The notes under the pieces: generated by a model
What the model was told of the DNA's origin: nothing
Seen by the model: only the letters and a program-made list of their open reading frames with translations
Databases searched by the model: none
Shown: positions 3,556 through 62,056 of the stretch, piece by piece
How positions within the stretch are numbered: the stretch's first letter is position 1
Layout: each line of letters opens with the position of its first letter
Made by a program: the position numbers and the translations under genes
Assembly (NCBI RefSeq): GCF_002002865.1
Contig: NZ_CP019508.1
Span: 372,001-436,000, forward strand
Reading direction: 5' to 3'
Length of the DNA stretch: 64,000 nt
Origin: Brevundimonas sp. LM2
GTDB taxonomy: Bacteria; Pseudomonadota; Alphaproteobacteria; Caulobacterales; Caulobacteraceae

Positions 3556-3630
3556 GCGGGCGTAGCTCAGTGGTAGAGCACAACCTTGCCAAGGTTGGGG
3601 TCGAGAGTTCGAATCTCTTCGCCCGCTCCA
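3556..3630 (+). tRNA. tRNA-Gly (anticodon GCC)
   Basis: A full cloverleaf can be folded: 7-bp acceptor GCGGGCG/CGCCCGC, D arm with GCTCAGTGGTAGAGC, anticodon stem CAACC/GGTTG with loop TTGCCAA (anticodon GCC), T arm GAGAGTTCGAATCTC, and encoded CCA at 3628-3630. tRNA-Gly genes are frequent attachment sites for integrative elements, and the genes that follow are accessory, so its 3' half is the probable left attachment site. Confidence 0.95.
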
Positions 3631-3665
3631 GTCGAGATTGCCAAGGCAATCAATAGGTTATGGCA

Positions 3666-43975: not shown

Positions 43976-46105
43976 TTAGGTCAAAAGGACAGGGCTACCC
44001 CAAGACAAAAGATTGCTGATCTGCTCGGCAGCACGTTCGCTCCGAAGGCGACTGATCGCTTCCTGCGTCGCATCAACCGTTTCGAAGTCCCGGATCAATC
44101 GCTCGGGCTGCTGCATCCGCGCCATCGTTGAGGCCAAGGCTTCGGCGACGGAGGATCCCGCGAGATCGAGAGACAGTGAACAGCCGAAGGCAAGCGCGGC
44201 ATAGTAGTCGATCGGCCAGAGATGCCCGATGACGCTCTGATCCGCGGTGGTAAGCTCGTGTCCAAAGCCGATGCGAGCTAGTCCGCCCCGGTTCTGGGTC
44301 GCCGTTGCGCTGCAGATATTCAGCACCAGAAGACGCCGGCCGGTTTCAGGACGCGCGTAAGCCGCGATCTCGGCTGATGTCAGCACAGTTCCGTCAGCCA
44401 GCACCAGTCCGCTTTCACTTTGCCGGAAGGGTGACTGTTCGCCGTGTCCGATGACCCACACGAGGTCGGCATCTGCATCTTCATAGAATGCTTGGAACGC
44501 ACGCTGGTCCAAAGGCGCTTCGACAACCTTGACCTCCCAGCCGGCGTGCAGACCCACAGCCCGGATGAAACTAACCTCGGCCTCCGTTGTCTGGGTTTCG
44601 CCCGGCCAGATACTGACGCATCGGGTGGTCCTGTCCTGAAGCGGAGCGGCAAGGCTCGCTTCCATGGGTGCCAGCCAGCCGAGAATGTTCGAAAGCGTCG
44701 CCTGTACCGGGTCACGATGAGCGGGCATGACGACCACCGATCGCGGGCGCCATCGTTCAGGCAGATGAGGCGCCAGCTCGTCGAAGCGATAGTGGCGCGC
44801 GATCGCTGCCGTGAGCTCCGGCGCTTTGTCATGAGCCGGCGCGCCGAGCATACGCTCGTCCAGAAGCAGCGCGCGGTCACCCGCCGGGCCGCGGAAATAT
44901 TCATTCAGGGCAGTCGATAGGCCCGCTAGGAGGCCTTCCAGGCTCTCGCCGCCTTCATCCCCTTCAATCAGATGCCGGCCGCCAGGCCAGAGATAAGCAA
45001 CGCCGTTCTTGTGTGCTGAGCCGATGTAAAGGACATCGGCACTGGCCTGCTCCATCCCGTCGACCCCGTACCAGGCCCACAACAAATCCATGATGTCCGC
45101 GACCGTCCCGATCTCGGTAAGGCTGAAAATCAACGGGTGGATAATGGCGACGCGAGCTTCCAGGGCAAGTATTGCGGCAGGGCCGGTCTCGAGCGCTCTA
45201 TACTCGTCCGCAAGTTTCCGAACTTCACCGAGTATCTGGACCCGAGCGGCGGTCCAATCCTCGTAGTCATCGATGGTGACCGCCAAAAGTTGGACGACCT
45301 CGTGTTCGACGAGGACATGGCGCAGGTCGCGGAGTGCTTCCTTGGCCCACTCCTGATGCGTTTGACGCGTCCATTGAGCGGCAGCCGTCGTGAACAACAC
45401 GGCCATCGTGGCCTTGGAGCGGTCGTCTATGCCGGGACGGCCATAGATTTCCGCCATGCTGCTGACCAAGGGCTCTGCGCATTTGTGCCCGCGATTGGTC
45501 GCCCAGTTGGCGATAGTGACGATCGCAGGAACGCCTCGCACGACATCTCCGGCCACGATCTCGTCCAAAACGTGAGCGATGCAGTAATCGGCGATCTGGT
45601 CGCACCAGTCGTCCATGCCGCCGAATTTTCTGGCGATCATGAGGGCGGCAGTGATCCAGTCGGTCAGGTTACGAAGACAGGCGGCATTCATTGGCGTGGC
45701 GACGCCGTCATACGGCGGCAGGCGATAGTCGCCTTGGTTGGCCCGCAGGTTGACGTTGTGGGTTCGGCTGGCGGACCAGTGGAGCCAGTTGTAGCAATCG
45801 CCATGCGCTCCCATCGCGACCGTCGTCATGATGGCGGGGATCGAAATTATGAACCGCATGGCGTCCAACCAGACAGCGCCCTCGTCGTCGCCGATGCGTC
45901 GGGTCTCGGCGGTCAGATCGCCGCGGATGGTTTCGGCCAGGTCGAAGAACGGTTGTCGATCGGCTCCCTGAGCTTGTTCGATAGCGTCCCGGAAAAAGCC
46001 AGCTACCGCCATCGGTGCCACGCCTTTCCACTCGAACTCGGCATCCCAGTTGGCGAGACCCGGATAAGCCGCTGAGGTCGTCGGAAAGCTATCGCGCAAG
46101 GTCAT
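43976..46105 (-). CDS. CHAT-domain (caspase-like) protease
   Basis: 709 residues. The C-terminal third is a CHAT peptidase: VWVIGHGEQSPF (catalytic His554) and LLVLNICSATATQNRGGLARIG (catalytic Cys598), followed by HELTTADQSVIGHLWPIDYYAALAFG, a typical CHAT closing block. The first 450 residues are helical with no recognised domain. CHAT proteases act in bacterial defence and programmed death, usually with a sensor partner. It is followed in the same strand by an MNT-HEPN gene upstream, which may or may not be a partner. Confidence 0.82.
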   Translation of the reverse strand: MTLRDSFPTTSAAYPGLANWDAEFEWKGVAPMAVAGFFRDAIEQAQGADRQPFFDLAETIRGDLTAETRRIGDDEGAVWLDAMRFIISIPAIMTTVAMGAHGDCYNWLHWSASRTHNVNLRANQGDYRLPPYDGVATPMNAACLRNLTDWITAALMIARKFGGMDDWCDQIADYCIAHVLDEIVAGDVVRGVPAIVTIANWATNRGHKCAEPLVSSMAEIYGRPGIDDRSKATMAVLFTTAAAQWTRQTHQEWAKEALRDLRHVLVEHEVVQLLAVTIDDYEDWTAARVQILGEVRKLADEYRALETGPAAILALEARVAIIHPLIFSLTEIGTVADIMDLLWAWYGVDGMEQASADVLYIGSAHKNGVAYLWPGGRHLIEGDEGGESLEGLLAGLSTALNEYFRGPAGDRALLLDERMLGAPAHDKAPELTAAIARHYRFDELAPHLPERWRPRSVVVMPAHRDPVQATLSNILGWLAPMEASLAAPLQDRTTRCVSIWPGETQTTEAEVSFIRAVGLHAGWEVKVVEAPLDQRAFQAFYEDADADLVWVIGHGEQSPFRQSESGLVLADGTVLTSAEIAAYARPETGRRLLVLNICSATATQNRGGLARIGFGHELTTADQSVIGHLWPIDYYAALAFGCSLSLDLAGSSVAEALASTMARMQQPERLIRDFETVDATQEAISRLRSERAAEQISNLLSWGSPVLLT

Positions 46106-48778: not shown

Positions 48779-49291
48779 GTGTCGGAAGCCAAGACCGTGG
48801 GAGACGATAACAGCGGCCGGTCCCGCCGGCACGCCCGACTGGAAGCCTTCTATCGCCGCTACTCACCTTGGCTTGTCGCGCGACTTCGTCGCCGGTTCGG
48901 CGCGGACACTGAAGATCTGGTCCAGGAAATCTGGCTACGAGTGTCAGCGATCGAGGCGGATCTGGACATCCGTCACCCCCGGGCATTCCTGTTGAAGGTC
49001 GCCTTTAACATCGGTCTCAGCGGGGATCGTCAGCATCGGCGGCGGCGGCAGATACTCGACAGCGCCGCTCCGTTGGGAACAATGGCCCTGGAGCCCACCC
49101 AGAACGCGGCGGTGCAGATTCAGGAAATCGTGCTCGCCTTGCCACAACCTCTCCGGGATGTCTTTGTGTTATCTAGATTTGGCGGTTTGACGAACAACCA
49201 GATCGCCGAGCAACTGGACATCAGTCCGAAGACCGTCGAATGGCGCATGACCAAGGCCTTGGCTCAATGCGCGGCAGAGCTTCGGCGCTAG
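48779..49291 (+). CDS. FecI-like ECF sigma factor of the lasso locus
   Basis: 170 residues from GTG 48779, which has GGAGG seven bases upstream. Sigma region 2: FYRRYSPWLVARLRRRFGADTEDLVQEIWLRVSAIE; region 4: VLALPQPLRDVFVLSRFGGLTNNQIAEQLDISPKTVEWRMTKALAQC. Typical FecI type, followed four bases later by a FecR gene and then an STN-containing TonB receptor, so it is expected to be activated by a signal received at the outer membrane and to transcribe the receptor/isopeptidase operon. Confidence 0.9.
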   Translation: MSEAKTVGDDNSGRSRRHARLEAFYRRYSPWLVARLRRRFGADTEDLVQEIWLRVSAIEADLDIRHPRAFLLKVAFNIGLSGDRQHRRRRQILDSAAPLGTMALEPTQNAAVQIQEIVLALPQPLRDVFVLSRFGGLTNNQIAEQLDISPKTVEWRMTKALAQCAAELRR

Positions 49292-49294
49292 GGA

Positions 49295-50284
49295 ATGGGG
49301 CGTATCATGGGCAACCCGAAAGCACGGGTTGAAACCGCGGACCGGGAAGCGGCCGAGTGGCACGAACGCCTCGGCGCGCGCAGCGTCACGACAGAGACGA
49401 TCCGGGAGTTTTTCGACTGGCGGAAATCTCCGGCCAACGCGGACGCGTATCGTCGGGTCGAGCTGATCTGGACGGAAAGCCGGAAGCTCGCCGGCCGGCC
49501 GGAGATTAACGAGGCGCTTAACGACGCCATGTCGCGTCGACTCCGCAAGACGTCAGAGGATCGATCGACCAGAAGACTGCTGGGCTTGGCCGCCCTCGGC
49601 GCAGCTGCGGCACTCGTGATCGGCGGATGGACGTGGTGGCAGGGGCGATCCACCTTCACGACCGGCGTGGGCGAGCAATGGGTCGTACAGTTGGCGGACG
49701 GGTCGTCGGTTCGCCTCGACACAGATTCCCGGATGAGGGTCAGGTTCAGCGACGGCCAGCGTCTCGTCGATCTTGAACGCGGACAGGCGATGTTTTCCGT
49801 GGCCCATGACGCTCAGCGACCATTTGTCGTCGCGGCGGGCGACGCGCGCGTGACGGCCATAGGGACGGTGTTCGACGTCCAGCGGCAAGGTGCCGGCGTC
49901 AGCGTCACTCTGGTGAGCGGCGCGGTGGATGTGACCCGTTTGTCCGGGCCGGAAAGGCCGTTACGACTTGCGGCGGGCCAAGAGGCGCGAGTGACCCCGG
50001 CCGGCACAGCCAGTCGCTCGGTTGATGTGCCCACGGCCACCAGTTGGACCGAGGGGCGGATCGTGTTCCGAGACACGCCGATGAACGAAGCGGTTGCCGA
50101 GGTGAACCGGTACCTCACTGCAAAGGTTGTTCTGGAGGCGAAGGATCTCGCGACAGTGCCGGTCAACGGTGTGTTCAAGACGGGGGATCGTGACGCCTTT
50201 GTCGCAGCGGCCTCGGGCGTTTTCGGCCTGGAGCCGTCGGCCGGGCCGGACGGCTCGATCCGATTGTCGGAACGCGGAAAATAA
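49295..50284 (+). CDS. FecR-family anti-sigma/signal transducer
   Basis: 329 residues. Cytoplasmic N-terminal domain with AAEWHERLGARSVTTETIREFFDWRKSPANADAYRRVELIW (FecR_N/DUF4880), one membrane helix (LLGLAALGAAAALVIGGWTWW), and a periplasmic FecR domain: GEQWVVQLADGSSVRLDTDSRMRVRF...ERGQAMFSVAHDAQRPFVV, then a C-terminal STN-like domain TWTEGRIVF-like (SWTEGRIVFRDTPMNEAVAEVNRY). Carries the signal from receptor to sigma factor. ATG 49307 is an alternative start. Confidence 0.92.
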   Translation: MGRIMGNPKARVETADREAAEWHERLGARSVTTETIREFFDWRKSPANADAYRRVELIWTESRKLAGRPEINEALNDAMSRRLRKTSEDRSTRRLLGLAALGAAAALVIGGWTWWQGRSTFTTGVGEQWVVQLADGSSVRLDTDSRMRVRFSDGQRLVDLERGQAMFSVAHDAQRPFVVAAGDARVTAIGTVFDVQRQGAGVSVTLVSGAVDVTRLSGPERPLRLAAGQEARVTPAGTASRSVDVPTATSWTEGRIVFRDTPMNEAVAEVNRYLTAKVVLEAKDLATVPVNGVFKTGDRDAFVAAASGVFGLEPSAGPDGSIRLSERGK

Positions 50285-50364
50285 ACCCGTCGAGGCTCCG
50301 GGGTCGCCCGGGGCCTCGATCACCTCCTCTTCGACGTCGCGTGACGTCGAGGGGAGCCCTGAAT

Positions 50365-53310
50365 ATGAGTCGCTTGAGTCTATTGTCCTGCAGCGCGATC
50401 GTCGCCTGCGCCGCATCCATCAGCGCGACGGCCTGCGCCCAGGACGCGCGTGAGTTCAGCATTCCGGCGGGTTCGCTGCGCGACGCGCTGAACTTGTTCG
50501 CGAGCCAGTCCGATAGGCAAATCTTCTTCTCCGGCGATTTGGTCGTGGGCCTTCGGACGGAGGGACTGAGCGGGCGATTTACGGCGCAGGACGCGCTCGC
50601 AAGGCTTCTGTCCGGGACTGGTCTGAGCCCGTCCGAGGTCCGCCCCGGCGTCATCTTCCTGAGGCGCGCCGGCACGGCCGGCCCGCGCGCGGAGGTCACC
50701 ACCCAGGTCGAGGACATCATCGTCACCGGCTCCTTGCTCAAGTCGTCCGGGCCCATGTCTTCGCCGGTGGTGACGCTCGACCGCGACGCCTTGGACGCTC
50801 GGGGGTTCGCAACAGTGGCGGAGGCGGTGACAGCCCTACCTCAAAACTACGCGGGCTCGGCGACGCCCGGCGTGCAGCTCGCCAATTCCGACCCTCAGGG
50901 CTCTAACAGGGTCGCCGCCACCGGAGTGAATCTGCGCGGTCTGGGACCGGCGTCCACGCTCGTCCTGGTGAACGGCAGGCGGATGGCGGGCACCGGCTTT
51001 CGGGGCGACTTCTCAGACATCTCGGCCATGCCCTCCGCGGCTGTGGAGCGTGTCGATGTCCTGCTCGACGGCGCCTCCGCCCTCTACGGCGCGGACGCGG
51101 TCGCCGGCGTCGTGAACGTCATCATGCGCCGGTCGTTCGACGGATTGGAGACCCGCGTGCGGGCGTCCGCGGCCGAAGGCGGGGCGGAGGATCTCGTCGC
51201 CTCCGCCGTCGGCGGTCGGTCCTGGTCTTCCGGGTCGGCCTACCTTGCCTATGAGTATCAGACGATCAATGCGTTGAACTCGCAGGACCGGCCCTACACC
51301 GCCGATGGAAATCTGCGGCCCTTCGGGGGGACGGATCGCCGCCTTACCTTCTCGGCCCCAGGCAATCTTGTCGTCTTCAACTCCGCCACCGCCTCCTATG
51401 TCTCCCAGTTCGCCATCCGACCGAATGCGTCAGGATCGGCGCAGAGCGCGGCGGACTTCGTCGCCGGAGCCGCAAACCTGCAAGCGCCGTCGTTGGGCGC
51501 TGATCTTCTGCCGGGGGTCGAACGCCAAGCGGCCTATGGCGCGGCGCGCCAACAGATCGGCGACCGGCTCGAGCTGACGGCTGATGCGCGGTACAACAAG
51601 CGCGACATCGAATACGCCGGGCCTGCGAGCATCGGCCTGATGACGGTCACGGCCGCCAACCCGTTTTTCATCTCTCCGACGGGCGCAGCGTCCCAGATGG
51701 TCGGATACTCCTTCGTCCGGGACCTGGGGAATCCGCGTCAGTCTCTGGGGTCGGAAAGCTTCGGTGTCACGGCCGGGGCAAGCTATGATCTCGGCGCCCG
51801 CTGGTCGGTCGAGAGCTATGTCTCGCTGGCCGGCGAAGAGGGGTCCGTCCGGGTTCCGGAACGGGTCAACACCCGGTTCCTGAACGAGGCGCTCGGGGTC
51901 ACACCGGACGATCCCACAACAGCCTATCGCGCGGCGCGGGATGGCTATTTCAATCCCTACGGCACAGGCACGGCGAACTCCGCGACCGTGCTCGACTTCA
52001 TCTCGAGCGGGTTTTCGGAAACCCACGACCGCAGCAGGGCCTCGTCCGCCAATCTTCTGGTGCAGGGGCCGATATTCGCCTTGCCGGGCGGCGACGTCCA
52101 ACTGGCGATCGGCGCCCAAGCGCGGCGCGAGACCTTTCAGGGCAGCAGCACGACCTTCTCTTCCACGCCGGCGCCGGTCTCCACCTCCACGCCAGAGCGG
52201 GCGCGCAATATCGATGCCGTCTTCGCCGAGGCCCGTATTCCGATCGTCGGCCCAGCCAATGCGAGGCCTGGCGTGCGCAGCCTCGAACTGTCGCTGGCGG
52301 GACGGTTCGAGGACTACAGCGACTTTGGCACGACCACCAATCCGAAGATTGGAATCACCTGGTCTCCCGTCGACGGTCTGGCAATGCGCAGTTCCTGGGG
52401 GACGTCCTTTCGCGCGGCCTCGCTGCCGCAGATCCAAGACAACCCGGCCATCTCGGCCACCTTTTTCGCGCGCGCCGACGGAAGCCGGGCCCTGGCCCTG
52501 CAGCTCGGTGGCGGCAATCCGGACCTGAAACCCGAGACGGCCGAGACCTTCACGGTCGGTGCGGACTTTCGCCGCCGCAACCGACTGACGCTGAGCGCCA
52601 ACTACTTCGATACCCGCTTCACCGACCGGATCGCCCGGCCGGTGGCGGAGAACCTGTCCGGTGTGCTTACCGATCCGAACCTGGTGAATTTCGTCACCCT
52701 CGTCCGCCCGGGCGACAACGCGGCGGATCTGGCCCTTGTCCAAAGCTACCTGAACCGGCCCGAGTTCACGGCCGGCGGCTTGTATCCCGCCACCAACTAT
52801 GCGGCGATCGTCGATGCGCGTTGGGTGAACACCGGGGCGGTCCGCGTCAGGGGGGTCGACCTCTCAGGGCGGGTTCCGACCGTGTTGGGCCTGGCGAATC
52901 TCTCGATCGACGGCTCGGCCTCCTACATCCTCGAATACGAGACCCGGAGCACCCCCACCGCCCCGGTCCGGGAGGTGTCGGGATTGATCGGCTTTCCCGT
53001 CAAGTTCCGCTCGAGGCTCGGCGCGACCTGGACCGACGGCGGGTTCGCCGCCAGCCTCCACTGGAACCATGTCGACGCCTATGAGGACCGCGCCAGCGTT
53101 CGCATCGACGCCTGGGACACCGCCGATGCCCAAGTGAGCTGGAACCCGGAGACGGGGGCTCTGGCGGGCTTGAGGATCAGCCTGACGGTCCAGAACCTTC
53201 TCGATGAAGACCCGCCGTTCTACAACGCCGCGAGCGGTTTCGGCTTCGATCCGGGTCAGGGCAGTCTTCTGGGCAGGGTCGTCGCGCTTCAACTGATCAA
53301 GCGCTGGTAG
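50365..53310 (+). CDS. TonB-dependent receptor with N-terminal STN signalling domain (lasso-peptide receptor)
   Basis: 981 residues. Signal peptide, then an STN domain (about residues 35-85: FSIPAGSLRDALNLFASQSDRQIFFS...LSGRFTAQDALARLLSGTGL), TonB box-like VEDIIVTGS, plug domain (GVNLRGLGPASTLVLVNGRRM, RVDVLLDGASALYGADAVAGVVNVI) and a large beta-barrel ending in a terminal aromatic-type strand (LGRVVALQLIKRW). In related loci this receptor is linked to lasso-peptide uptake and signalling through FecR/FecI. Isopeptidase gene follows after nine bases. Confidence 0.93.
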   Translation: MSRLSLLSCSAIVACAASISATACAQDAREFSIPAGSLRDALNLFASQSDRQIFFSGDLVVGLRTEGLSGRFTAQDALARLLSGTGLSPSEVRPGVIFLRRAGTAGPRAEVTTQVEDIIVTGSLLKSSGPMSSPVVTLDRDALDARGFATVAEAVTALPQNYAGSATPGVQLANSDPQGSNRVAATGVNLRGLGPASTLVLVNGRRMAGTGFRGDFSDISAMPSAAVERVDVLLDGASALYGADAVAGVVNVIMRRSFDGLETRVRASAAEGGAEDLVASAVGGRSWSSGSAYLAYEYQTINALNSQDRPYTADGNLRPFGGTDRRLTFSAPGNLVVFNSATASYVSQFAIRPNASGSAQSAADFVAGAANLQAPSLGADLLPGVERQAAYGAARQQIGDRLELTADARYNKRDIEYAGPASIGLMTVTAANPFFISPTGAASQMVGYSFVRDLGNPRQSLGSESFGVTAGASYDLGARWSVESYVSLAGEEGSVRVPERVNTRFLNEALGVTPDDPTTAYRAARDGYFNPYGTGTANSATVLDFISSGFSETHDRSRASSANLLVQGPIFALPGGDVQLAIGAQARRETFQGSSTTFSSTPAPVSTSTPERARNIDAVFAEARIPIVGPANARPGVRSLELSLAGRFEDYSDFGTTTNPKIGITWSPVDGLAMRSSWGTSFRAASLPQIQDNPAISATFFARADGSRALALQLGGGNPDLKPETAETFTVGADFRRRNRLTLSANYFDTRFTDRIARPVAENLSGVLTDPNLVNFVTLVRPGDNAADLALVQSYLNRPEFTAGGLYPATNYAAIVDARWVNTGAVRVRGVDLSGRVPTVLGLANLSIDGSASYILEYETRSTPTAPVREVSGLIGFPVKFRSRLGATWTDGGFAASLHWNHVDAYEDRASVRIDAWDTADAQVSWNPETGALAGLRISLTVQNLLDEDPPFYNAASGFGFDPGQGSLLGRVVALQLIKRW

Positions 53311-53319
53311 TCCGGTCCC

Positions 53320-55785
53320 ATGGTCCGGACCCTGTCCGCCCTGGCCGGGGCGTTGCTGGCGCTCATCTGCCTCGTCACGCCCGTGTTCCCGCAGGATCGG
53401 GGCGTCACGGTCGAGGATGTCGTTGGACTGGAGGCATTTGGCCGCGCAGCCATCTCGCCGGACGGGCGCTGGGCCATCTATGAGAAACGGGGTCCCTACG
53501 ACAGCGCGACGCGGTTCGATCTGGGCCAGCGTGCGCCCTGGACGGTCACCGACCTTTGGCTCGTGGATCTGCGGCGCCCGAACGCCGCGTCCGAGCGGCT
53601 TCTCCCAGGCGAAGGCCCCGGTCTTCTACGTGGGTCCTGGTCGCCGTCGGGCGCTCGCGTCCTGATCTACCGCTTCACCGGCGCCCGGCTTGAGGTCGGC
53701 ATCGTCACGATGGCCGATCGGTCCGTACTATGGACGGGGCTGACGCCGGAGATGCCGCAGATGGGGGCGGTCGCCGAATGGCGTGGCGACGAAGAGGTTG
53801 TCGTCATGGCCCGTCGCGACGGCGACCTCCCGTGGCTCCTGAGGTACTACAGCGCCGGCCAGACCCGGACCGCGCAGGCCTGGGCGCGGACGGCATCGGG
53901 CCAGGAGCCGTCACGTACGGTCATCGACACGGCAAACCGCCTTCCCGTGGCAGAAGACGCCGGCAGCCTGCAGACCCTAGTTCTGGTCGACGCCACGACG
54001 GGCAAGGGTCGCCCTTTGTTTGAAGGCGTCATCGTGGATTTCGCCCTCTCCCCCGACGGCGGCCGGGCCGCCGTGATCGAGGGGGTCGCTCCGCGGTCGC
54101 TGCCCGCAGATGCGATCTCCCAATCGGAGGTTCCGTGGTTGCAGCGGCTTGTACTCATCGACCTTGACCGGGCCGTGAGGATCGCACCGGATGCAGACTT
54201 CGAAGTGGCCCCGCACCTGCTGCGATGGTCGCCGCAGGGTAACGCCGTCCTGGTCTGGGGCCGGACGAGCGGAAAGTCATGGGGCGACGGCGATCTCCGA
54301 ACAGTCAGCCGGAACGGCGCGGTGACTACCGTGGATCGCCACGGGCTGGATCCGACCCCTGGACGGGCGATCGACCTCGTGACGGGGGTCCGCGCCGACT
54401 GGCTGGGATCCGTCCCGGTCCTGTTCGCCAGCCCGCCGGGGAGCGGCCGCCGGGACTGGTACGCGCTTCCGCGAGACAGCGACGCCCGGTCCCTGACATC
54501 GATGATGGCGGCCCCGCCGGATCAGATCGCCGCCGTGGCCGACGACGCCTTCCGGGTCATCGCCGATGGCGCCGCCTGGCGTGTCACCCGGTCTGGCGCC
54601 CGGCGAGAGACGCCGACCGATGCGGCGCTGAAGGCCGTCATTCCTTATGACGTCGAAGCCCCGTTCAGGCTGCGGGTCAACGCCGCACCGCGCCAGCCCT
54701 GGATGACAGCCCTGACCCCAAACGGCGGAGTCGATATCCTCACGGACGCCAGGATCCAGGCGCTCGGGGTCGGAGGCGGCGAACCTCTCGATCTGATGGC
54801 GAGTTCGCCCTCCGCCGCGCTCGTGCTGAAGCGCACCGGAGTGTCGGAGGCGCTCTTGCTTCTCACGCCGGGTGAGGCGCGCACGCTCGACCGCGTCAAC
54901 GTCGGCCTTAGGGAAGTCGCCCTGCCCACGCCGACGCCGATCGACCATCTAGATGCGTCCGGCCGCCCGACGCGAAGCTGGCTGTTCCGGCCGCCTTTGG
55001 GGTCCGGCCAGAAGATCAGGGGGATCATCGTGTCCCTCTATCCCGGGTCAGCCAGTCGCGGCGCCTGGTCCGGTCCCCTCGGTCTGATCTATGGCGTTAG
55101 ACCGGCCATACTCGTCGGAGACGGCTATGCCGTCCTCAGCGCCTCGATCCCAGGAAGCGAGTACGGCGATGATCCAGCGGACTACTTCACCCGCAGCGTC
55201 GATCTGGCGTTCGAGGCCGCAGTCGCGGCCCATCCGGAACTCCCGGCCGACCGGGCCGCGATTTTCGGGCACAGTTTCGGAGCCTACGCGGCGCTCGCGG
55301 TCGCCACGCGATCGAGCCGATACCGAACCTACATCGCCTGGGCGGCGACCACGGACATGTTCGGGGCCTGGGGAGAGTTCACTCCGGCCAACCGCGCCGC
55401 GCCCGAAGAAGGGTTCATGATGCTCAACCAGCAGGGGTGGGTCGAAACCGGCCAGGCCGGACTCGGCGAGCCGCCGTTCGACGCCAGCGAACGCTATGCG
55501 AAAGCGAGCCCCTGGCTGGCGGCGGATCGGGTCAGAAATCCGGTCCTGTTGATCACGGCCGATATGGATTTCGTGACGACGTCGCAATCGGAACGGATGT
55601 TCAGCGCCTTGAGCCGGCTGGGCGGTCGGGCCCGCCTCGTCACCTACTGGGGCGAGGAGCATTTCAACTGGAGCCCGGCCAACATCCGTGACCTCTACGG
55701 GCAGATCTTCGACTGGCTCGAGACAACCCTCGACGCCGGGGACACTACCGTGACAAAGCCTCGAACCGCTGAGTCCACACCCTGA
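53320..55785 (+). CDS. Lasso-peptide isopeptidase (secreted prolyl-oligopeptidase-family hydrolase)
   Basis: 821 residues. Signal peptide (ALICLVTPVFPQD) indicates periplasmic location. A beta-propeller-like N-terminal part (GLEAFGRAAISPDGRWAIYEKRG) is followed by an alpha/beta-hydrolase with GHSFGAYAAL (Ser652), an Asp in TADMDF (Asp748 or 750) and a His in WGEEHFNW (His781). Enzymes of this type (AtxE-like) open the macrolactam bond of the cognate lasso peptide. Its gene end overlaps the convergent cyclase gene by 41 bp. A generic peptidase is less likely given the neighbours. Confidence 0.9.
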   Translation: MVRTLSALAGALLALICLVTPVFPQDRGVTVEDVVGLEAFGRAAISPDGRWAIYEKRGPYDSATRFDLGQRAPWTVTDLWLVDLRRPNAASERLLPGEGPGLLRGSWSPSGARVLIYRFTGARLEVGIVTMADRSVLWTGLTPEMPQMGAVAEWRGDEEVVVMARRDGDLPWLLRYYSAGQTRTAQAWARTASGQEPSRTVIDTANRLPVAEDAGSLQTLVLVDATTGKGRPLFEGVIVDFALSPDGGRAAVIEGVAPRSLPADAISQSEVPWLQRLVLIDLDRAVRIAPDADFEVAPHLLRWSPQGNAVLVWGRTSGKSWGDGDLRTVSRNGAVTTVDRHGLDPTPGRAIDLVTGVRADWLGSVPVLFASPPGSGRRDWYALPRDSDARSLTSMMAAPPDQIAAVADDAFRVIADGAAWRVTRSGARRETPTDAALKAVIPYDVEAPFRLRVNAAPRQPWMTALTPNGGVDILTDARIQALGVGGGEPLDLMASSPSAALVLKRTGVSEALLLLTPGEARTLDRVNVGLREVALPTPTPIDHLDASGRPTRSWLFRPPLGSGQKIRGIIVSLYPGSASRGAWSGPLGLIYGVRPAILVGDGYAVLSASIPGSEYGDDPADYFTRSVDLAFEAAVAAHPELPADRAAIFGHSFGAYAALAVATRSSRYRTYIAWAATTDMFGAWGEFTPANRAAPEEGFMMLNQQGWVETGQAGLGEPPFDASERYAKASPWLAADRVRNPVLLITADMDFVTTSQSERMFSALSRLGGRARLVTYWGEEHFNWSPANIRDLYGQIFDWLETTLDAGDTTVTKPRTAESTP

Positions 55786-57505
55786 GCCAGCCTTCGAAGG
55801 CTGCGGCCCGAATGATCGCGCCGAACTGGCCCTTCCACATCAGGGCTTCTTCAGTGAGCGCCGCCTCCGTTCGGGCGCGATCGATCAGACCGGACGCCGC
55901 GAGCCTTCCGTCGAGAAGCCAGGGACGGAGGACGTCGAGGCTGGAAAGCACCATCCGGCCATAGATGCGGGTCATGTCACCCTTGGACCGGCGCTCGGCG
56001 ATCAGCGCGGGGAGTCGGTCCGCGAACGCCCGGCGGACCAGACCGCGGTCGCGCCCGCCGATCGTCAGCAAGGCGGTGGGGATCGCCAGACAGGCCTCGA
56101 TGACGGGCTGGGCGCAGAACGGGTGACGGACGTCGATGGTTTCCGTCAGGAGAGACGGACCGTGGCGCGACACGCTGTCAATCACGCCGGCGATCTGTCG
56201 GATCTTGGCAGGACCGAATGCCTCGCTGCCGGCGAGCCAGGGATGGGACAACGTTGGAGCTTCTTCCCGGCTTGGGAGCAGGGTGTCGTCACGCAACAGA
56301 CTGAACCCCTGTTGCCGGGTATCCCGCCGGGCGCGCTGGATCATGGTCCAGACCGAGACCTCGTTGCGTGCGGCGAGACGGGCGACATCCTTCGAAAGAA
56401 GAGCGCGCCACCCCTGTCCTTTCCAGAGATCGGTGAACACATCAGGACTGGCGTTCTGTAGAAAGATGGAATCGCCGCCCTTTCCGGTCATCAGGGCCGA
56501 CCCGCCGGCGCCGGCGACCCGTCGGGCCCACTCCAGGTCATGATGGACGTCGAGCGCATTTAATCCTGGACGAAAGTCCCCCGAAATCTGCTCGAGGAGC
56601 GGCTCGGTCAGAGTGCCTGTAGCGTGCGGCGCGAACGTCGGTGATATCCCCAGTGTCTGGGCCAGCGCGTGCACGTAGACCCGCTCATCGGCCTCCTGTG
56701 TCGCCCCGTAGGCGTTCAGCCAAAGCGCGATAGGGACCTCGGCTCTGCGCACCAGACTTGCGGCGACGGTGCTGGAATCCAGTCCTCCTGACACCTCCGC
56801 CGCCAGTGATCCGTCGAGGCCGGCAAGGCCCGCGACGGCGTCGTCAACGGCCGTCGTCAAGGTCTCGATAGCCTCGTCGAGCGTCCAGCGGCGCGACAGG
56901 CTCCGCCGTGCGAAGTCCGAGGGCGTCCAGACCGTGGCCGCAGAAGAGGCGAGCGGCAGGGGCTGGACGGTTCCCGGCGCAACCGTGACGGGGCCGTCCA
57001 TCAACAGCCAGTCCGCAGAACTCATGGGGTCGCGCATGGCCAAACCGAGCCTGTCGTGGTTTGGACACCACCGGATCGCCAGACCTGCAGGGAGCCAGTC
57101 AGGCACGCTCGACGCCACGACCAGAAGTCCATCCTGTTCCCAGGCGACACACTCCAGGGCGCCTGACGGATCACGAAGGAGGGATCGGGCCTGTCCGTCG
57201 GCCGCGAGTTGTACGCCCACAAAGCGTCCCCAGAACCGCGCCATCAGTTTGCGCTCGTAGTCCCACGGATCATTCCGTTCGGTTGGAGGGAACTCGGGCC
57301 TTCGCCGATGAAGAACATCCCCAACGAGGGTCCAAGATCCCACCGCCAGCCGGTTGGGCCGATGCGGGCCAGCGAGGCCGAGCCACGCCGCTGTGCTCAG
57401 TTCCACGACGGCCCATCCGGCGTTTTCGCAGCGGCGGCGAAGATCGGCCGACAGAGCCTTGGCGGCGGTTTGAGAGGACGCGCTGATGAGAACGTAGCGA
57501 CCCAT
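55745..57505 (-). CDS. Lasso-peptide cyclase (asparagine-synthetase-like, C protein)
   Basis: 586 residues from ATG 57505, which overlaps the stop of the upstream B gene (TGATG). The N-terminal glutaminase-like domain lacks the catalytic Cys2 (MGRYVLIS), as in lasso cyclases. The synthetase domain shows LAAEVSGGLDSSTVAASLVRR (PP-loop SGGxDSS), LMTGKGGDSIF and later RRAFADRLPALIAERRSKGDM. It adenylates the acceptor Asp/Glu of the core and closes the ring on the N-terminal amine. A longer in-frame start lies inside the B gene and is rejected. Confidence 0.92.
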   Translation of the reverse strand: MGRYVLISASSQTAAKALSADLRRRCENAGWAVVELSTAAWLGLAGPHRPNRLAVGSWTLVGDVLHRRRPEFPPTERNDPWDYERKLMARFWGRFVGVQLAADGQARSLLRDPSGALECVAWEQDGLLVVASSVPDWLPAGLAIRWCPNHDRLGLAMRDPMSSADWLLMDGPVTVAPGTVQPLPLASSAATVWTPSDFARRSLSRRWTLDEAIETLTTAVDDAVAGLAGLDGSLAAEVSGGLDSSTVAASLVRRAEVPIALWLNAYGATQEADERVYVHALAQTLGISPTFAPHATGTLTEPLLEQISGDFRPGLNALDVHHDLEWARRVAGAGGSALMTGKGGDSIFLQNASPDVFTDLWKGQGWRALLSKDVARLAARNEVSVWTMIQRARRDTRQQGFSLLRDDTLLPSREEAPTLSHPWLAGSEAFGPAKIRQIAGVIDSVSRHGPSLLTETIDVRHPFCAQPVIEACLAIPTALLTIGGRDRGLVRRAFADRLPALIAERRSKGDMTRIYGRMVLSSLDVLRPWLLDGRLAASGLIDRARTEAALTEEALMWKGQFGAIIRAAAFEGWLRVWTQRFEALSR

Positions 57506-58146
57506 CAGGCGACCATGATCGGCGTATAGCTCCGGACCCGCTCCAGACTGTCGCCTACGAGGAGGTCCTCGACCTGGATCCAGCAGTGCGCCGCGAACGG
57601 CCAGGTTCTGACCCCGAAGATCCAGTCGGATGCGATCCCGTGAGAACGAAGAAGGCGCTTCAGAAGAAAACCGCGCTGGAGACATTCGCCCTCGAACGGC
57701 GTCCAGGGGAGGGCCGCGCGATAGTCCGCGAGCACCGTCGTCAGATCGGACTTCCGGGCGTCCGACCTTGGGCCGACCTCCACGGCCGCGGTCAGTTGCG
57801 CCAAGGTCTTGCGATGGAAGACCACGGTCGAAACGAGGAGATGGGCCAGGGCAAGGGAGACGGGCGCGGCGTCGGTTGAGCCGGCAGACCGCGGCGCTTC
57901 ATGCGAGGCCAGAACAGGTGTTCGAGGCGCGCGCAGAGGGCGGTCGGTCTGGACGATACCGTGGGTCTTGAGTTCTATCGCGAGGTCGTCGTCGTCGATC
58001 GCGATGCGGCCCGCGTCCTCAAGCCTGACAACGGAGCCAGCGCCCAGCAGACAGCTGTACGTGTCGGCGGCGACGTCGAGCATGATCAGATCGTCACCCA
58101 CCCGGGCGAAATGAATGCCGTCGCGCGGCCAGAGATGTGTGGGCAT
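57505..58146 (-). CDS. Lasso-peptide leader peptidase with fused recognition domain (B protein)
   Basis: 213 residues from ATG 58146; the frame is open further upstream but that stretch is an intergenic hairpin. Residues 1-80 are a PqqD-like recognition element (FARVGDDLIMLDVAADTYSCLLG, DLAIELKTHGIV). The C-terminal half is a transglutaminase-like protease: TPFEGECLQRGFLLKRLLRSHG (Cys155), FAAHCWIQVEDLLVGDS (His187 and a following Asp). It binds the leader and cuts after it so the cyclase can act. B1 and B2 functions are fused, as in proteobacterial loci. Confidence 0.92.
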   Translation of the reverse strand: MPTHLWPRDGIHFARVGDDLIMLDVAADTYSCLLGAGSVVRLEDAGRIAIDDDDLAIELKTHGIVQTDRPLRAPRTPVLASHEAPRSAGSTDAAPVSLALAHLLVSTVVFHRKTLAQLTAAVEVGPRSDARKSDLTTVLADYRAALPWTPFEGECLQRGFLLKRLLRSHGIASDWIFGVRTWPFAAHCWIQVEDLLVGDSLERVRSYTPIMVA

Positions 58147-58162
58147 TTTCTGTACGACCGGT

Positions 58163-58188
58163 GTGGGCGGCGGTGAGCCGCCGCCCAC
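58163..58188 (-). promoter_or_regulatory. Strong hairpin between precursor and B genes
   Basis: Perfect 11-bp GC-rich stem (GTGGGCGGCGG/CCGCCGCCCAC) with a 4-base loop, 8 bases past the precursor stop and 16 bases before the B start. No T-run follows on the transcribed strand, so it is more likely an mRNA stabiliser or partial terminator that keeps precursor mRNA in excess over enzyme mRNA. Confidence 0.7.
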
Positions 58189-58196
58189 GTTTTCGT

Positions 58197-58316
58197 TCAG
58201 CCGAGGGCCAGCGGGCGGGGGAACACGCCCATCTCGGTGTCTTCGCCCTGGATGTTGTCCCGCGTCAGAGCCTTGGCGCTGCCGAAGCTGACGAGGCGCA
58301 GTTTGGTCGTCTTCAT
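58197..58316 (-). CDS. Lasso-peptide precursor (A), 39 residues
   Basis: Leader of 19 residues containing LVSFGSAKALTR, with Thr at position -2 and Arg at -1 as in astexin-type leaders, then a 20-residue predicted core DNIQGEDTEMGVFPRPLALG. The core starts with Asp, and Asp7 or Glu9 could close a 7- or 9-residue ring. A core starting at the internal Gly would have no Asp/Glu at positions 7-9, so that choice fails. AAGGAG lies eight bases before the ATG. It sits directly upstream of B and C and is too short for normal gene calling. Core start is predicted, not shown. Confidence 0.82.
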   Translation of the reverse strand: MKTTKLRLVSFGSAKALTRDNIQGEDTEMGVFPRPLALG

Positions 58317-58386
58317 CTCAGTCTCTCCTTGGTTGATCGCCACGGCTGTGGCGCAACCAGTGAGCGCGCAGATCGGTCAGCTGCAA

Positions 58387-58411
58387 AGCTATATCTGGAG
58401 TATATTTGAGC
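58387..58411. promoter_or_regulatory. AT-rich dyad upstream of the lasso precursor
   Basis: AGCTATATCTGGAGTATATTTGAGC in otherwise GC-rich DNA, with flanking AGCT and TATA half-sites and a TATACT-like -10 on the minus strand (58404-58399). It lies between the XRE regulator gene and the precursor, so it is a likely promoter/operator for precursor expression. Confidence 0.4.
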
Positions 58412-58897
58412 TCAGCGTCCTGGCTTGGGTCGCTTGGCGCGCAGATTCGCCGAGCCTTTCTCGATCCAGTCCTGGGCCGGATCCCCGTCACGCAGCGCCT
58501 TGGCGAGCTCCTCGAACAGTCGGACGATGGCGGTGATGATGGTCCGGCTGTCGAGGTTGCGGATGTCATCGCCGAGAAGGTGGTCGAACTGCTCCAGTCC
58601 GATCGTATAGATGGAGCCCATCTGGTTTTCTGCGCACCGTCTGGCGTGCTCGGGCGATCCGATAGCAACCGCCATGAGGATCGCTTGGGCGTCGCTTCGC
58701 GTCGCGGCGGCGAAGCGGTGGATGTAGTCGAGGTTGAGACGGGTTTCTCCGGCCTCAAAGCGGGCATAGGTCCGGATGGCGATCCGCATGGCCGCAGCCG
58801 TCTCCGCCTTCGTCATCCGGCGGTAGCGGCGCAACGACTTCAGGGTCGCCGAGAGCAGCGCGCCATCGTCTGGAAGTTCCGGGTCTTCTCCACTCAT
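58412..58897 (-). CDS. XRE-family HTH regulator of the lasso locus
   Basis: 161 residues. Helix-turn-helix LKSLRRYRRMTKAETAAAMRIAIRTYARFEAGETRLNLDYIHRFAAATRSD at the N-terminus, followed by a helical C-terminal region (GSIYTIGLEQFDHLLGDDIRNLDSRTIITAIVRLFEELAKAL). It is immediately upstream of the precursor gene on the same strand with 95 bases between, which hold an AT-rich dyad. Likely controls precursor/biosynthesis genes, while the FecI/FecR pair controls the receptor side. Confidence 0.85.
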   Translation of the reverse strand: MSGEDPELPDDGALLSATLKSLRRYRRMTKAETAAAMRIAIRTYARFEAGETRLNLDYIHRFAAATRSDAQAILMAVAIGSPEHARRCAENQMGSIYTIGLEQFDHLLGDDIRNLDSRTIITAIVRLFEELAKALRDGDPAQDWIEKGSANLRAKRPKPGR

Positions 58898-59126
58898 CCG
58901 CGCATACCCTTCCGTCCTCTGAAGTAGAATCAGTCCGGCTTCTGATCAACGATCACGTGTGCGGCTGCGAAAGCAAACAGGAAAATCGGCCACATATCGG
59001 CATGTTTTGCAGCGCCTCCTGACCGAGGTTCGGACGATTTGCGACCGAGACGGATCGCCCGTGGCTGCAACTCATTGGCGAGGCGTGGGCAGGCGCCATA
59101 GTGGGCGTTTGCCATCGGAGCTCACC

Positions 59127-59753
59127 TTGATCCGCAAGCATGACCCTTTCACCCTGGCCTTGGAAAGCCTTCGCGCCCGGGCCGAACAGGGCGCCTTCAC
59201 GCCGGGAGCCCCGGTGGTGATCATCGAGGAGGCGCGCCGGCTGAACCTATCCGCTACGCCGGTTCGCGAGGCCCTGGGCTGGCTGTGTGGGTTCGGCCTG
59301 ATCGAGCGAGCGCCCTTGGGAGGCTTTCTGGCTCCCCGACTTGACGCCGCTCTTGTCCGCGACAGGTTCACCTTCCGCCTGCTGTGCCTCACGACCAGCC
59401 TGAAGGGCGGGGATCCCGCGTCGAGACCCGTGTTGCGCGGCGGTGGACTGCAGAGAACATGCCGCACCCTTTCCGATCACATGTTCAGGGCGGTTAGAAC
59501 CACAGGCAATGCGGCCTTGGTGGACGCCTATGACCGGGTGAACAGCCCGCTGTTGCAGCTGGCCGAGGCGGAACGCCGGGTGTTCGAGGATTTCGACCAT
59601 GAGGCGGCGGCGCTGGTGGGTCTATTTAGACGGCCGTCGGGAACAGATTTGGTCGACGCCTTGACCGCTTATCACCACCGTCGAATGGACGCCGCTCCTT
59701 CGCTGATCCTCGAAGCTGAGGCTGGCCGTGATGTCCGGCCTCCGGGCTCCTGA
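59127..59753 (+). CDS. GntR-like winged-helix protein upstream of traG
   Basis: 208 residues from TTG 59127, which has GGAG seven bases upstream; the domain starts directly after it. FTLALESLRARAEQGAFTPGAPVVIIEEARRLNLSATPVREALGWLCGFGLIERAPLGGFLAPRLDA is a GntR-type wHTH. A helical C-terminal part follows. Genes of this type commonly stand before traG on such elements. The gene overlaps traG by 23 bases. Probably regulates the transfer operon. Confidence 0.72.
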   Translation: MIRKHDPFTLALESLRARAEQGAFTPGAPVVIIEEARRLNLSATPVREALGWLCGFGLIERAPLGGFLAPRLDAALVRDRFTFRLLCLTTSLKGGDPASRPVLRGGGLQRTCRTLSDHMFRAVRTTGNAALVDAYDRVNSPLLQLAEAERRVFEDFDHEAAALVGLFRRPSGTDLVDALTAYHHRRMDAAPSLILEAEAGRDVRPPGS

Positions 59754-61626
59754 GGTGTGGGCCAAGCTGACAGGATTGGGGCTCGGCCTCGCCGTGGGCG
59801 CCCAGGCCGCGACGGAGATGTTCGCCTGGACGTACCAGTGGGCCGAAGCTCTGGGACCGGCCTGGCGCATCGGCCCCGACCTTGCCCTCTATCCGCCCTG
59901 GGCCATCCTGCAATGGCGATCGGCCTTCGGCGCCGAGGCGCAGGCCGTCATGTCGCGGTGCGCGCCGTTGATCGTGGTCTGCGGCGTCGGAGGGCTGGGG
60001 TTGGGGACGCTGGCGGGCGACGGGCCCCCTCGACGTATCCGGGGCTGGGGAGAGCTGAAAGACGCCAAAGGCGCCGGGCTCACGGCCGTAGGAGGCTGCA
60101 TCCTCGGCGTTCTGGGGCGAAGGGTTCTCGCCACGATCGACCTCCGTCCCAGCCTGGTCACGGGCGGGACGCGGTCAGGCAAGGGACGCGGCCATGTCAT
60201 GCCGACGCTATTGTCGTGGAACGCCAGCGTGCTGGTCCACGATCCCAAGCGGGAGCTCTGGCGGCTCAGCAGCGGTTGGCGCTCCCGATTTAGTCACGCC
60301 CTTTATTTCGATCCGCGCGACTCGGCTTCGGCCTGCTGGAATCCATTGGCTGAAATTCTGCCCGGACCGGGAGAGCTCGCCCACGTTCAGCGACTGGTCT
60401 CCATTCTTTCTGATCCCGGCGGCGCCCGCGACGACGAGGCGATCTGGGACAAGGCGGCGTCGGAAATCCTTGAGGCCGTGATCCTTCACGTCCTCTACAC
60501 CGCCGCGGATACCGACAAGACCCTGCTTAAGGTCCGCGAAATGCTGGCCGACCTCGACAGCGCCGCCGACGTCATGACCAAGACTTTGCACCGTCCGGGT
60601 CCGAGCGGCGAACCGGAGACTCATCCGTTCATCGCCACGGCGGTCAAGGGCTATGCGGCGATGCACGACCGCTTCCGGACTTCGGTCCAGGGGACGGCCC
60701 GGTCCTACCTCAAATGGCTGGCGGGCGAGGACATCGAACGTGCGCTGTCCCGGTCGGATTTCTCCATGGGAGATCTGATGTGCGCCGAAGCGCCCCTGTC
60801 TCTCTACGTTCAGGTCGCGCCGGCTGACAGCGCAGCGCTGAGGCCCTTGGTGCGTCTTTTCTTCTACGCCGCAGCCCAGTCCCTGACGGTTCGGGAGACC
60901 GAAGCCGCCGATGGGCGGCCCAAGCGCCATAACCTTCTCATGCTGATGGATGAGTTCCCGTTGCTCGGGCGGGTCAGTTTTTTCGAGAAGTCCCTGCGCC
61001 TGCTCAGCGGCTACGGGGTCAAGGTAATGTTCGTCGCCCAGTCGCTCAACGATATCGTCGAGACATACGGCGCCAACAACACCATTCTCGACAACCTCCA
61101 TGTCTATACCGCCTTCAGCGCGCTCGATCCTCTGACCCAGGATAAGGTGTCGAAGCTGACGGGGTCCGTGCTGGAGACCCGAACCAGCCGCAGTTCATCG
61201 GCGGGGCTGGCAGCTGGCCGCAGCTCGGTGTCCCGGTCTCAGGTCGAGCGGCCGCTACTGGAGCCGGGCGAGATCCGCGCCCTTCCGGACGACATCCAGT
61301 TGGTGTTCGCCGCCGGCGCCCGACCGCTGCGGACGACCAAGCTCCTCTATGACGTCCGCGAACCGTTTCGGACGCGTGCGCAAGACGTCGCGCCCGATCA
61401 GGCCGCGCGGCTGGATGCGCCGCCCGGAGCTCTGCACCCATGGGCGGGTCGCCGCAGTCTGGGCGAGGACGCCGACGCGTCGCTGCCGCTGTTCAAGGAA
61501 GTGGCCGCAGCGATGGACGACAAGAAGGTCGCAGCGCGTGTGGCCGATATCTACGGGCGGGTGGCGCAGGAGATGGCCGCGCAGGATGCGGCGCTCGATC
61601 ATTTGCGAGGTCTAGGCGATGGCTAG
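59731..61626 (+). CDS. traG: Type IV coupling protein TraG/VirD4
   Basis: 631 residues. Two N-terminal membrane segments, Walker A LVTGGTRSGKGRGHVMPTLLSW, VHDPKREL, Walker B HNLLMLMDEFPLLGRVSFFEKSLRLLSGYGVKVMFVAQSLNDI. It couples the relaxosome to the transfer channel at the inner membrane. GTG 59728 is an alternative start. It overlaps the RHH-type gene by eight bases, in the usual traG-RHH-trbB order. Confidence 0.93.
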   Translation: MSGLRAPEVWAKLTGLGLGLAVGAQAATEMFAWTYQWAEALGPAWRIGPDLALYPPWAILQWRSAFGAEAQAVMSRCAPLIVVCGVGGLGLGTLAGDGPPRRIRGWGELKDAKGAGLTAVGGCILGVLGRRVLATIDLRPSLVTGGTRSGKGRGHVMPTLLSWNASVLVHDPKRELWRLSSGWRSRFSHALYFDPRDSASACWNPLAEILPGPGELAHVQRLVSILSDPGGARDDEAIWDKAASEILEAVILHVLYTAADTDKTLLKVREMLADLDSAADVMTKTLHRPGPSGEPETHPFIATAVKGYAAMHDRFRTSVQGTARSYLKWLAGEDIERALSRSDFSMGDLMCAEAPLSLYVQVAPADSAALRPLVRLFFYAAAQSLTVRETEAADGRPKRHNLLMLMDEFPLLGRVSFFEKSLRLLSGYGVKVMFVAQSLNDIVETYGANNTILDNLHVYTAFSALDPLTQDKVSKLTGSVLETRTSRSSSAGLAAGRSSVSRSQVERPLLEPGEIRALPDDIQLVFAAGARPLRTTKLLYDVREPFRTRAQDVAPDQAARLDAPPGALHPWAGRRSLGEDADASLPLFKEVAAAMDDKKVAARVADIYGRVAQEMAAQDAALDHLRGLGDG

Positions 61627-62056
61627 GAAAGAAGCGGCAAGCGCCCGCGTGCAGGTTTATTTGACCGATCCCAAGATCGTGTCCGGTCTCAATCGGGAGG
61701 CCCGCAGCGGCAAGATGCCGCTCAGTCAGGCAGCGGGTCGGGCCATTGCCCGCGGTCTGCAGAAGAGCCCTCAGGCCGATCCCGAGGATCGACTGCTGCA
61801 ACTCGAACGGTCCCTGCGCGACCATATGAGATCCACCGCGCGCGACATGCAGATCGTCCAGGAACTGTTGATCGAGGTGGCGCGCGCCTTCTTCGTCCGG
61901 CTCCCCGACGCGATCGTCGACGAAGATCCCACGGTTCAGGCGGCCGTCGATCGGCGGATCGAACGCCTGTTGGACGCCACGGCCGCCCGCATCGTCGCCG
62001 GCCGGACGGAACGTCCTGTGCCTGATGAGGAGCGGTCGTTCGGCCAGAGCAACTGA
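61619..62056 (+). CDS. Ribbon-helix-helix (CopG-like) protein of the trb operon
   Basis: 145 residues. The N-terminal SARVQVYLTDPKIVSGLNREARSGKMPLSQAAGRAIARGLQKS fits a ribbon-helix-helix DNA-binding fold. The rest is helical. Located between traG and trbB and overlapping both, it is the expected small regulator of the transfer operon. The trbB start overlaps its stop. Confidence 0.78.
   Translation: MARKEAASARVQVYLTDPKIVSGLNREARSGKMPLSQAAGRAIARGLQKSPQADPEDRLLQLERSLRDHMRSTARDMQIVQELLIEVARAFFVRLPDAIVDEDPTVQAAVDRRIERLLDATAARIVAGRTERPVPDEERSFGQSN

Follow-up and report, generated by a model that had tools for sequence, protein, structure and literature searches.

A lasso peptide locus beside the conjugation genes of a Brevundimonas integrative element, with a predicted Asp1 core and a possible signaling role

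The lasso peptide locus of Brevundimonas sp. LM2 analyzed here lies in a 64,000-nucleotide stretch (bases 372001-436000 of the complete 3.56-Mb genome; hereafter, the window), inside an integrative and conjugative element (ICE) and next to its coupling protein gene traG. Gene content, element borders, conservation of Asp1 and Glu9 in the peptide core, a fixed place beside conjugation genes, and exchange of the peptide and receptor genes as a cassette can all be read from sequence comparisons. We interpret the locus as an ICE-encoded, polymorphic peptide-receptor signaling cassette, probably serving self-recognition among carriers, a tentative reading to which we give a probability of roughly 0.45. 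As a lone cluster the locus is ordinary; an Asp1 core together with exchange beside conjugation genes was described in no paper found.

A fixed place beside conjugation genes

The original prediction, a complete isopeptidase-type lasso locus of two convergent gene sets, was borne out in gene order and orientation by Pfam and NCBIfam scans, which recovered all eight genes and the B2 and Asn-synthetase-like domains. The plus strand encodes a FecI-type extracytoplasmic function (ECF) sigma factor (48779-49291; Pfam/NCBIfam; its open reading frame (ORF) can start at 48737), a FecR anti-sigma factor (49295-50284; Pfam), an STN-plug-barrel TonB-dependent receptor (50341-53310; Pfam), and a secreted S9 peptidase that is the candidate lasso isopeptidase (53320-55785). 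Facing them on the minus strand are the Asn-synthetase-like lasso cyclase C (55745-57505; Pfam), the leader peptidase B with its B2 domain (57505-58188; Pfam and NCBIfam), the 39-aa precursor A (58197-58316; MKTTKLRLVSFGSAKALTR followed by the core DNIQGEDTEMGVFPRPLALG), and an XRE-type regulator (58412-58897; Pfam). A GntR-type regulator gene on the plus strand (58959-59753), left out of the original prediction, also belongs to the module, with a PF00392 match of 22.9 bits that is under the cut-off of 27. It is codirectional with the traG ORF and overlaps it; across the window and 18 relatives, the GntR and TraG matches overlap (n = 3) or lie at most ~100 bp apart.

The ICE spans 93,354 bp, of which the window contains approximately the first 60 kb. 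Its left border, attL (3580-3634, plus strand), is a 55-bp direct repeat over the 3' end of a tRNA-Gly(gcc) gene (3556-3630), and the second copy, 54/55 identical (98.2%), lies at genome positions 468879-468933 beside an integrase match (PF00589; genome 467479-468000). The plus strand of the element encodes a relaxase (42684-43919; DUF3363 and a weak MobA/VirD2-like match), the type IV coupling protein (T4CP) TraG (59728-61626), and the ATPase TrbB (62056-63012; Pfam T2SSE), in the order of trb operons, with further trb-like genes to the right (VirB4/TrbE-like, TrbL, and TrbF matches in region L039). A flanking direct repeat, an integrase, a relaxase, a T4CP, and genes of a type IV secretion system (T4SS) are thus all present, and excision and transfer are predicted. 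The element also has genes for cation efflux, RND efflux, a P-type ATPase, CopB, and a multicopper oxidase. Both the claim of a metal-resistance integrative element and that of a lasso locus between relaxase and T4CP therefore stand. Between the relaxase and FecI, the minus strand (43976-46105) encodes a CHAT protein matching BovA of the Borvo defense system (PADLOC, 1.3e-157); in the related locus L130, FecI lies ~0.7 kb from the relaxase match. In L039, a TrbB fragment (13749-13880, 72% identical) occurs ~13 kb past the full trbB of the same ICE.

The block was sought at other sites in related genomes, a check that the original prediction had proposed. B was searched in 131 Brevundimonas genomes, giving 100 matches in 67 of them; the window TraG served as T4CP query, and its nearest match was taken for each B. 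A total of 72 B matches lay at fixed offsets from a conjugative T4CP, in three contexts. In 27 matches (the traG-type places) the T4CP was divergent and 2-6 kb upstream, mostly at 2.8-3.4 kb, with a single case at 5.7 kb and another represented by a TraG fragment where the contig ends. In 41 it was again divergent, 12.6-13.2 kb upstream (mean 13,012 bp, s.d. 117), and in 4 it shared the strand of B at a distance of 14-19 kb. The gene order was the same in 23/23 of the traG-type places read; it was also read in 8 of the other 45. For the remaining B matches the T4CP was farther away (n = 7) or absent from the contig (n = 21); among the latter, one (G031:C67) adjoins trb genes, and in two with Asp1 precursors the contig stops no more than 2 kb away on the side of traG. 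By rough arithmetic, with about two T4CPs per 3.2 Mb, chance linkage within 20 kb would be expected in a few per cent of cases. The original prediction had called the locus cargo of the element; its location there was confirmed, and the word undersells both the fixed place near a T4CP (27 + 45 B matches) and the cassette exchange described below.

The other two contexts correspond to other T4SS types. The second type (five loci read) has VirB4, B5, B9, B10, B11, and VirD4 (Pfam on L103), with relaxase, ArdC, and AbiE genes nearby in G119; the third (four loci read) has all or part of a relaxase-TraG-TrbB..TrbI series, and the lasso genes follow TrbI. Seen from the coupling proteins, a lasso locus accompanies 26 of the 48 long TraG copies of ≥65% identity and 41 of the T4CPs of 28-33% identity (n = 55 transcribed). 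Outside the genus, 76 isopeptidases were listed from 55 genomes of the family, with a T4CP within 20 kb in 34 and within 25 kb in 39, farther away in 21, and none on the contig in 16. In nine linked regions chosen from these genera the lasso module adjoins all three T4SS types, and one such region is 99-100% identical to a Brevundimonas element in VirB11, VirD4, XRE, GntR, B, C, and isopeptidase (VirB4, 93%).

A near-identical locus occurs in Brevundimonas vesicularis S00192 (B 99%), and a related-locus search with B alone returned one locus. Plasmid records gave 21 matches, two of which cover ≥80% of the isopeptidase at ~31% identity, and in a class-wide sample this isopeptidase type was detected (E ≤ 1e-80) in 1/144 genomes, the window's own. 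Among titles and abstract starts, a search outside which most subscription papers lie, we found no paper that links lasso clusters with conjugative elements; a lasso cluster flanked by insertion sequences is described for Amoebophilus in the available text of PMC3423634.

Exchange of the cassette within a conserved frame

Pairwise identities of eight genes, FecI not among them, were compared by Mantel tests over 15 non-redundant loci (999 permutations). FecR, XRE, and GntR follow TraG (rho = 0.60, 0.42, and 0.64; p = 0.003, 0.004, and 0.001), and their correlations with C are low (rho = 0.26, 0.05, and 0.22; p = 0.106, 0.396, and 0.117). The receptor, isopeptidase, and B follow C (rho = 0.77, 0.92, and 0.69; p = 0.001 each), with rho = 0.25, 0.10, and -0.14 against TraG (p = 0.094, 0.275, and 0.745). 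Single pairs of elements illustrate the same division. Genomes G001 and G067, of two species, share TraG and GntR at 100%, XRE at 95%, and FecR at 97%, with 79% for the receptor, 61% for the isopeptidase, 65% for C, and 55% for B; the window and G081 share TraG at 95% and XRE at 94%, with 40% for B and 47% for the isopeptidase. In the TraG tree the window, G150, G081, and G144 form one clade (support 100/99), which the cyclase alignment rejects (approximately unbiased test, p = 1.2e-5).

The edge of the exchanged part can be located in the window, where DNA homology to L129, L130, and L105 breaks at 58256/58257, that is, at the Asp1 codon, and the leader-side pieces beside the break are 73-93% identical to those of the relatives. 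In six loci of the second T4SS type, VirB4 is 91-97% identical, versus 29-54% for the isopeptidase between three cassette types. The trees, Mantel tests, and core break together indicate that the genes for processing, cleaving, and reception are exchanged jointly within conserved flanks, the pattern expected of a pherotype. By these comparisons A, B, C, isopeptidase, and receptor appear as a cassette swapped within a frame of FecR, XRE, GntR, and TraG. Exchange seems to occur within this ICE family, since the traG-type cyclases form one clade (100/99, 24/24); those of the other groups cluster and do not each form one clade.

Some loci depart from the usual composition. The ICE of L131 (G071) keeps FecI, FecR, half a receptor, XRE, and GntR, with no room for A. 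In L034 (11254-14976), PepSY_TM and a plain TonB receptor come after XRE-A-B-C, and neither an isopeptidase nor FecI/FecR was matched; L126 retains only partial matches.

The precursor, its predicted ring, and the processing enzymes

The 39-aa precursor is preceded by a stretch resembling a ribosome-binding site ahead of its ATG at 58316; an alternative 48-aa ORF from a GTG is less likely. Its predicted core, DNIQGEDTEMGVFPRPLALG, has Asp at position 1. We read 29 traG-type loci (24 long and 8 short regions, with three loci covered twice; two, L036 and L042, stop before traG), and the residue after the Thr-x of the leader was Asp in 27/29, Ala in L125, and Leu in L038. The leader residues Thr(-2), Leu(-3), Ala(-6), and Gly(-8) were kept in 29/29 precursors. 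Among 27 distinct cores, 25 have Asp1, 26 have Glu9 (the remaining core has Glu8), and 18 have Gly5. The locus thus shows what is expected of a lasso precursor, Thr(-2) in all precursors and an Asp/Glu ring acceptor at positions 7-9, and Asp1 and Glu9, both near-invariant, are also the pair expected to be joined, giving a predicted Asp1-Glu9 ring. A database of 5.8 billion proteins held five precursors, all Asp1, two nearly identical to that of the window and three others. In other groups the residue after Thr-x is Gly, Ala, or Gln, the last for example in a trb-linked locus (L098, G081:C7). In seven regions (L013, L014, L016, L023, L025, L095, and L122) a single ORF encodes two or three leader-core units in tandem, with Ala1.

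We consider it very probable that the locus makes an Asp1 lasso product. If the leader were cut one residue later, the core would be NIQGEDTEMGVFPRPLALG, with Asn1 and an eight-residue ring closed on that same Glu. In its favor, 14/27 distinct cores have Gly as their second residue, and Asn1 is known from metanodin (PMC12670498, available text). Such a cut would, however, violate the Thr(-2) rule, which the precursors of all groups read obey; position 1 is nearly fixed and position 2 variable (entropy 0.46 vs 2.06 bits), and many Gly1 and Ala1 cores share the register of Gly5 and Glu9. The later cut therefore has a very small chance of being correct. The computed [M+2H]2+ values of the lasso forms are 1071.020 for the Asp1 core and 1013.507 for the Asn1 core.

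The isopeptidase-type lasso peptides of Caulobacterales and sphingomonads include the astexins, caulonodins, benenodin, and sphingopyxin, and cores with Trp or Leu at position 1 also occur among lasso peptides. The original prediction assigned the locus type to the astexin/caulonodin class; its core, however, does not belong to the kind that starts with Gly, Ala, or Ser, the kept Thr(-2) being followed by Asp at position 1. The available text of PMC12670498 (2025) gives Gly, Cys, Ser, and Ala as examples of position-1 residues observed experimentally and newly reports Asn; the Asp1 of the window and of 25/27 distinct cores falls outside the residues named there. Because that text introduces its list with "such as", the list is not closed, and it reflects a habit of known members rather than a definition. 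No report of an Asp1 lasso core was found in the literature searched, which excludes most subscription papers.

B is well supported as a leader peptidase (lasso_biosyn_B2 NF033537, 79.2 bits vs a cut-off of 33; PF13471, 79.6 vs 26) and carries Cys169, His201, and Asp213, which we take to be its catalytic residues. The N-terminal ~105 residues ahead of the B2 domain have no Pfam or NCBIfam match, so the "RRE fused" label given to this part is plausible and unconfirmed. C has a PF00733 match of 89.5 bits (cut-off 21) and the motif SGGLDSS at residue 239, and it matches the lasso cyclase models NF033561 and NF033535 below their cut-offs. Its true start is most likely at 57505, overlapping the stop of B (586 aa, vs a 646-aa ORF). 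No PDB sequence match for B or C was obtained with phmmer.

The S9 peptidase scores 35.4 bits (5.3e-09) with the Atxe2-family model NF033523, whose cut-off is 400. In an alignment of 11 sequences, the window's included, Ser652 and His781 are invariant and Asp748/750 nearly so. The profile of these sequences matches AtxE2 (5txc) at 1.8e-13 over the hydrolase half, with other S9 peptidases scoring higher, and a structure model (predicted local distance difference test, 88.6) has the S9 fold, with S9 peptidases as its top structure matches and AtxE2 not among the best 50 matches listed in either structure comparison. Its kinship with the Atxe2 family is distant at best; the gene context makes the predicted isopeptidase activity likely.

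According to the available text of PMC9266682, isopeptidase-type clusters contain a precursor, B, C, isopeptidase, TonB receptor, FecI/FecR, and GntR. The window resembles them in its Thr(-2), B, C, S9 peptidase, TonB receptor, FecI/FecR, and GntR (the last below its cut-off), the receptor, sigma pair, and GntR being in the arrangement shown there, and in the lack of a visible ABC exporter. It differs in its Asp1, an XRE gene beside the precursor, an ICE site beside traG, and a peptidase so far below the family cut-off. Metanodin, as described in the available text of PMC12670498, likewise departs from the canonical position 1 behind a conserved Thr(-2) and has an isopeptidase gene in its cluster; its precursor was missed by annotation, and a related cluster has Gln at position 1. 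It is, unlike the window clade with Asp1 as a rule, a single case with Asn1 from Steroidobacterales, and that text mentions no conjugative element, whereas the window locus lies in an ICE. The host genome has a second lasso cluster (L003, 3.432-3.447 Mb) with two Gly1 precursors, 54 kb from the nearest TraG match.

Tn4371-type ICEs presumably share with this element the DUF3363 relaxase, TraG, TrbB, further trb genes, and cargo between relaxase and traG; the window element differs in sitting in tRNA-Gly. In agr and other exchangeable signal-receptor loci, a hypervariable peptide, its processing enzyme, and its receptor are exchanged en bloc within conserved flanks. The window differs from these in its chemistry, its outer-membrane receptor, and its conjugative element, and signaling is only predicted here.

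Signal, weapon, or passenger

The gene set suggests a signaling circuit in which ring closure, the match of receptor and ligand, the wiring of the sigma factor, and most of all the recognition role are inferred. B would cut the leader after Thr-Arg, and C would link the Asp1 amine to the Glu9 side chain, closing the ring of a threaded lasso. The released peptide would be recognized by the cognate STN-TonB receptor, which when occupied would free the FecI-type sigma factor from FecR; the freed sigma factor would drive the receptor and isopeptidase genes, and the isopeptidase would linearize the peptide and end the signal. Carriers of the same type may in this way recognize the peptide of their own element, and time or restrict transfer, or exclude relatives. 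For the recognition role itself our confidence ranges from low to somewhat short of even.

Two putative regulatory sites bear on this circuit. An ECF-like site (CCGGGGT...GTCTCTT) aligns ahead of the receptor gene in 15 loci (50295-50330 in the window, plus strand), a position consistent with expression of receptor and isopeptidase under FecI. The window, L130, and L037 have a degenerate second box. Scanning the ICE with a two-box profile of 13 relatives (13.0-32.1) gave 17.6 for the receptor site and 14.8 for the next best. Control of the tra genes by the sigma factor was rejected, the few other ECF matches being at the level of shuffled sequence (5, 3, and 1 per strand). Upstream of A, a conserved box with two ATATA repeats (AATATACTCCAGATATAGCTT; 58386-58406, minus strand) precedes the gene in 17/18 aligned loci, exactly in the window (58406), and occurs with 0-4 mismatches in 15/20 loci of other groups, where its place relative to A was not checked in each. 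A short hairpin (GCCAC..GTGGC; 58316-58400, minus strand) just ahead of the precursor start is conserved in relatives; two-sided changes were present in only 1/5 of its pairs (10 sequences), and we built nothing on this 5' untranslated hairpin.

Several observations weigh against the signaling interpretation. The window's own ECF-like site is weak, no such site above chance was found near tra genes in the whole ICE with the two-box profile, and a search of the ICE for the A-promoter box, allowing up to five mismatches, yielded only the one copy; no regulatory site shared by sensing and transfer genes thus emerged. Because neither site recurs near tra, the tie to transfer is drawn from position, from the co-inheritance of GntR and XRE with TraG, and from GntR lying directly before traG. 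Fourteen group IV loci, including the second lasso cluster of the genome, had no match to the T4SS queries used in the 15-20 kb read around each, and other T4SS types would escape these queries. Wholly or mostly, the isopeptidase, receptor, and sigma pair are missing from 4/24 tabulated loci, and the ICE of L131 lacks B, C, and isopeptidase. Polymorphism of the cassette is compatible with a weapon and its protection as well.

The weapon is the main rival, although we consider it unlikely. The peptide would be a narrow-spectrum bacteriocin of the ICE against sister strains or competing elements, with receptor polymorphism following uptake, the isopeptidase protecting the producer, and exchange reflecting an arms race. 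Other lasso peptides act as weapons, cassette exchange and core hypervariability would be expected, and the four loci just mentioned keep A-B-C without the usual sensing genes. Yet neither an ABC exporter nor a known immunity gene was found among the nine ORFs scanned (Pfam, NCBIfam), and FecI/FecR with an STN domain form a sensor set to read a ligand. Isopeptidase-type lasso peptides are also, astexin-1 excepted, without antimicrobial activity according to the available text of PMC9266682.

A passive-cargo reading, rather improbable in our view, makes the lasso locus one passenger of several at an insertion hot spot upstream of traG. This would account for the 22/48 long TraG copies without lasso B at 2-6 kb (at least three of them at a contig end), a count that also speaks against the signaling cassette, and for the metal efflux and Borvo-type genes in the same element. 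It is hard to square with the divergent 2-6 kb spacing of B and TraG in 27/27 linked places and their constant gene order in the 23 read, with the single clade of traG-type cyclases, with the inheritance of XRE and GntR with TraG, and with the fixed linkage in two other T4SS types. We give still less weight to a siderophore-like, metal-scavenging peptide, taken up by the TonB receptor and released by the isopeptidase: the FecI/FecR/STN-TonB set resembles siderophore uptake, and L034 has PepSY_TM and a plain TonB receptor after its cyclase, but cassette exchange and hypervariable cores would be left without a reason and the fixed place beside T4SS genes unexplained.

The signaling cassette remains our preferred reading. 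Its wider form, that lasso peptides serve the conjugative elements of Caulobacteraceae as pherotype signals, sensed through TonB/FecR/FecI so that carriers adjust transfer or exclusion, is doubtful. If true, it would give isopeptidase-type lasso peptides, whose role is called an open question in the available text of PMC9266682, a biological role as lasso pheromones with a new Asp1-Glu9 ring. Asp1 precursors could be overlooked by mining rules built around Gly, Ala, Ser, or Cys, and the Asp1 core, if its ring is confirmed, would widen the chemistry known for lasso cyclases. The fixed place beside three T4SS types and the swapped peptide-receptor set make the purpose of such peptides testable.

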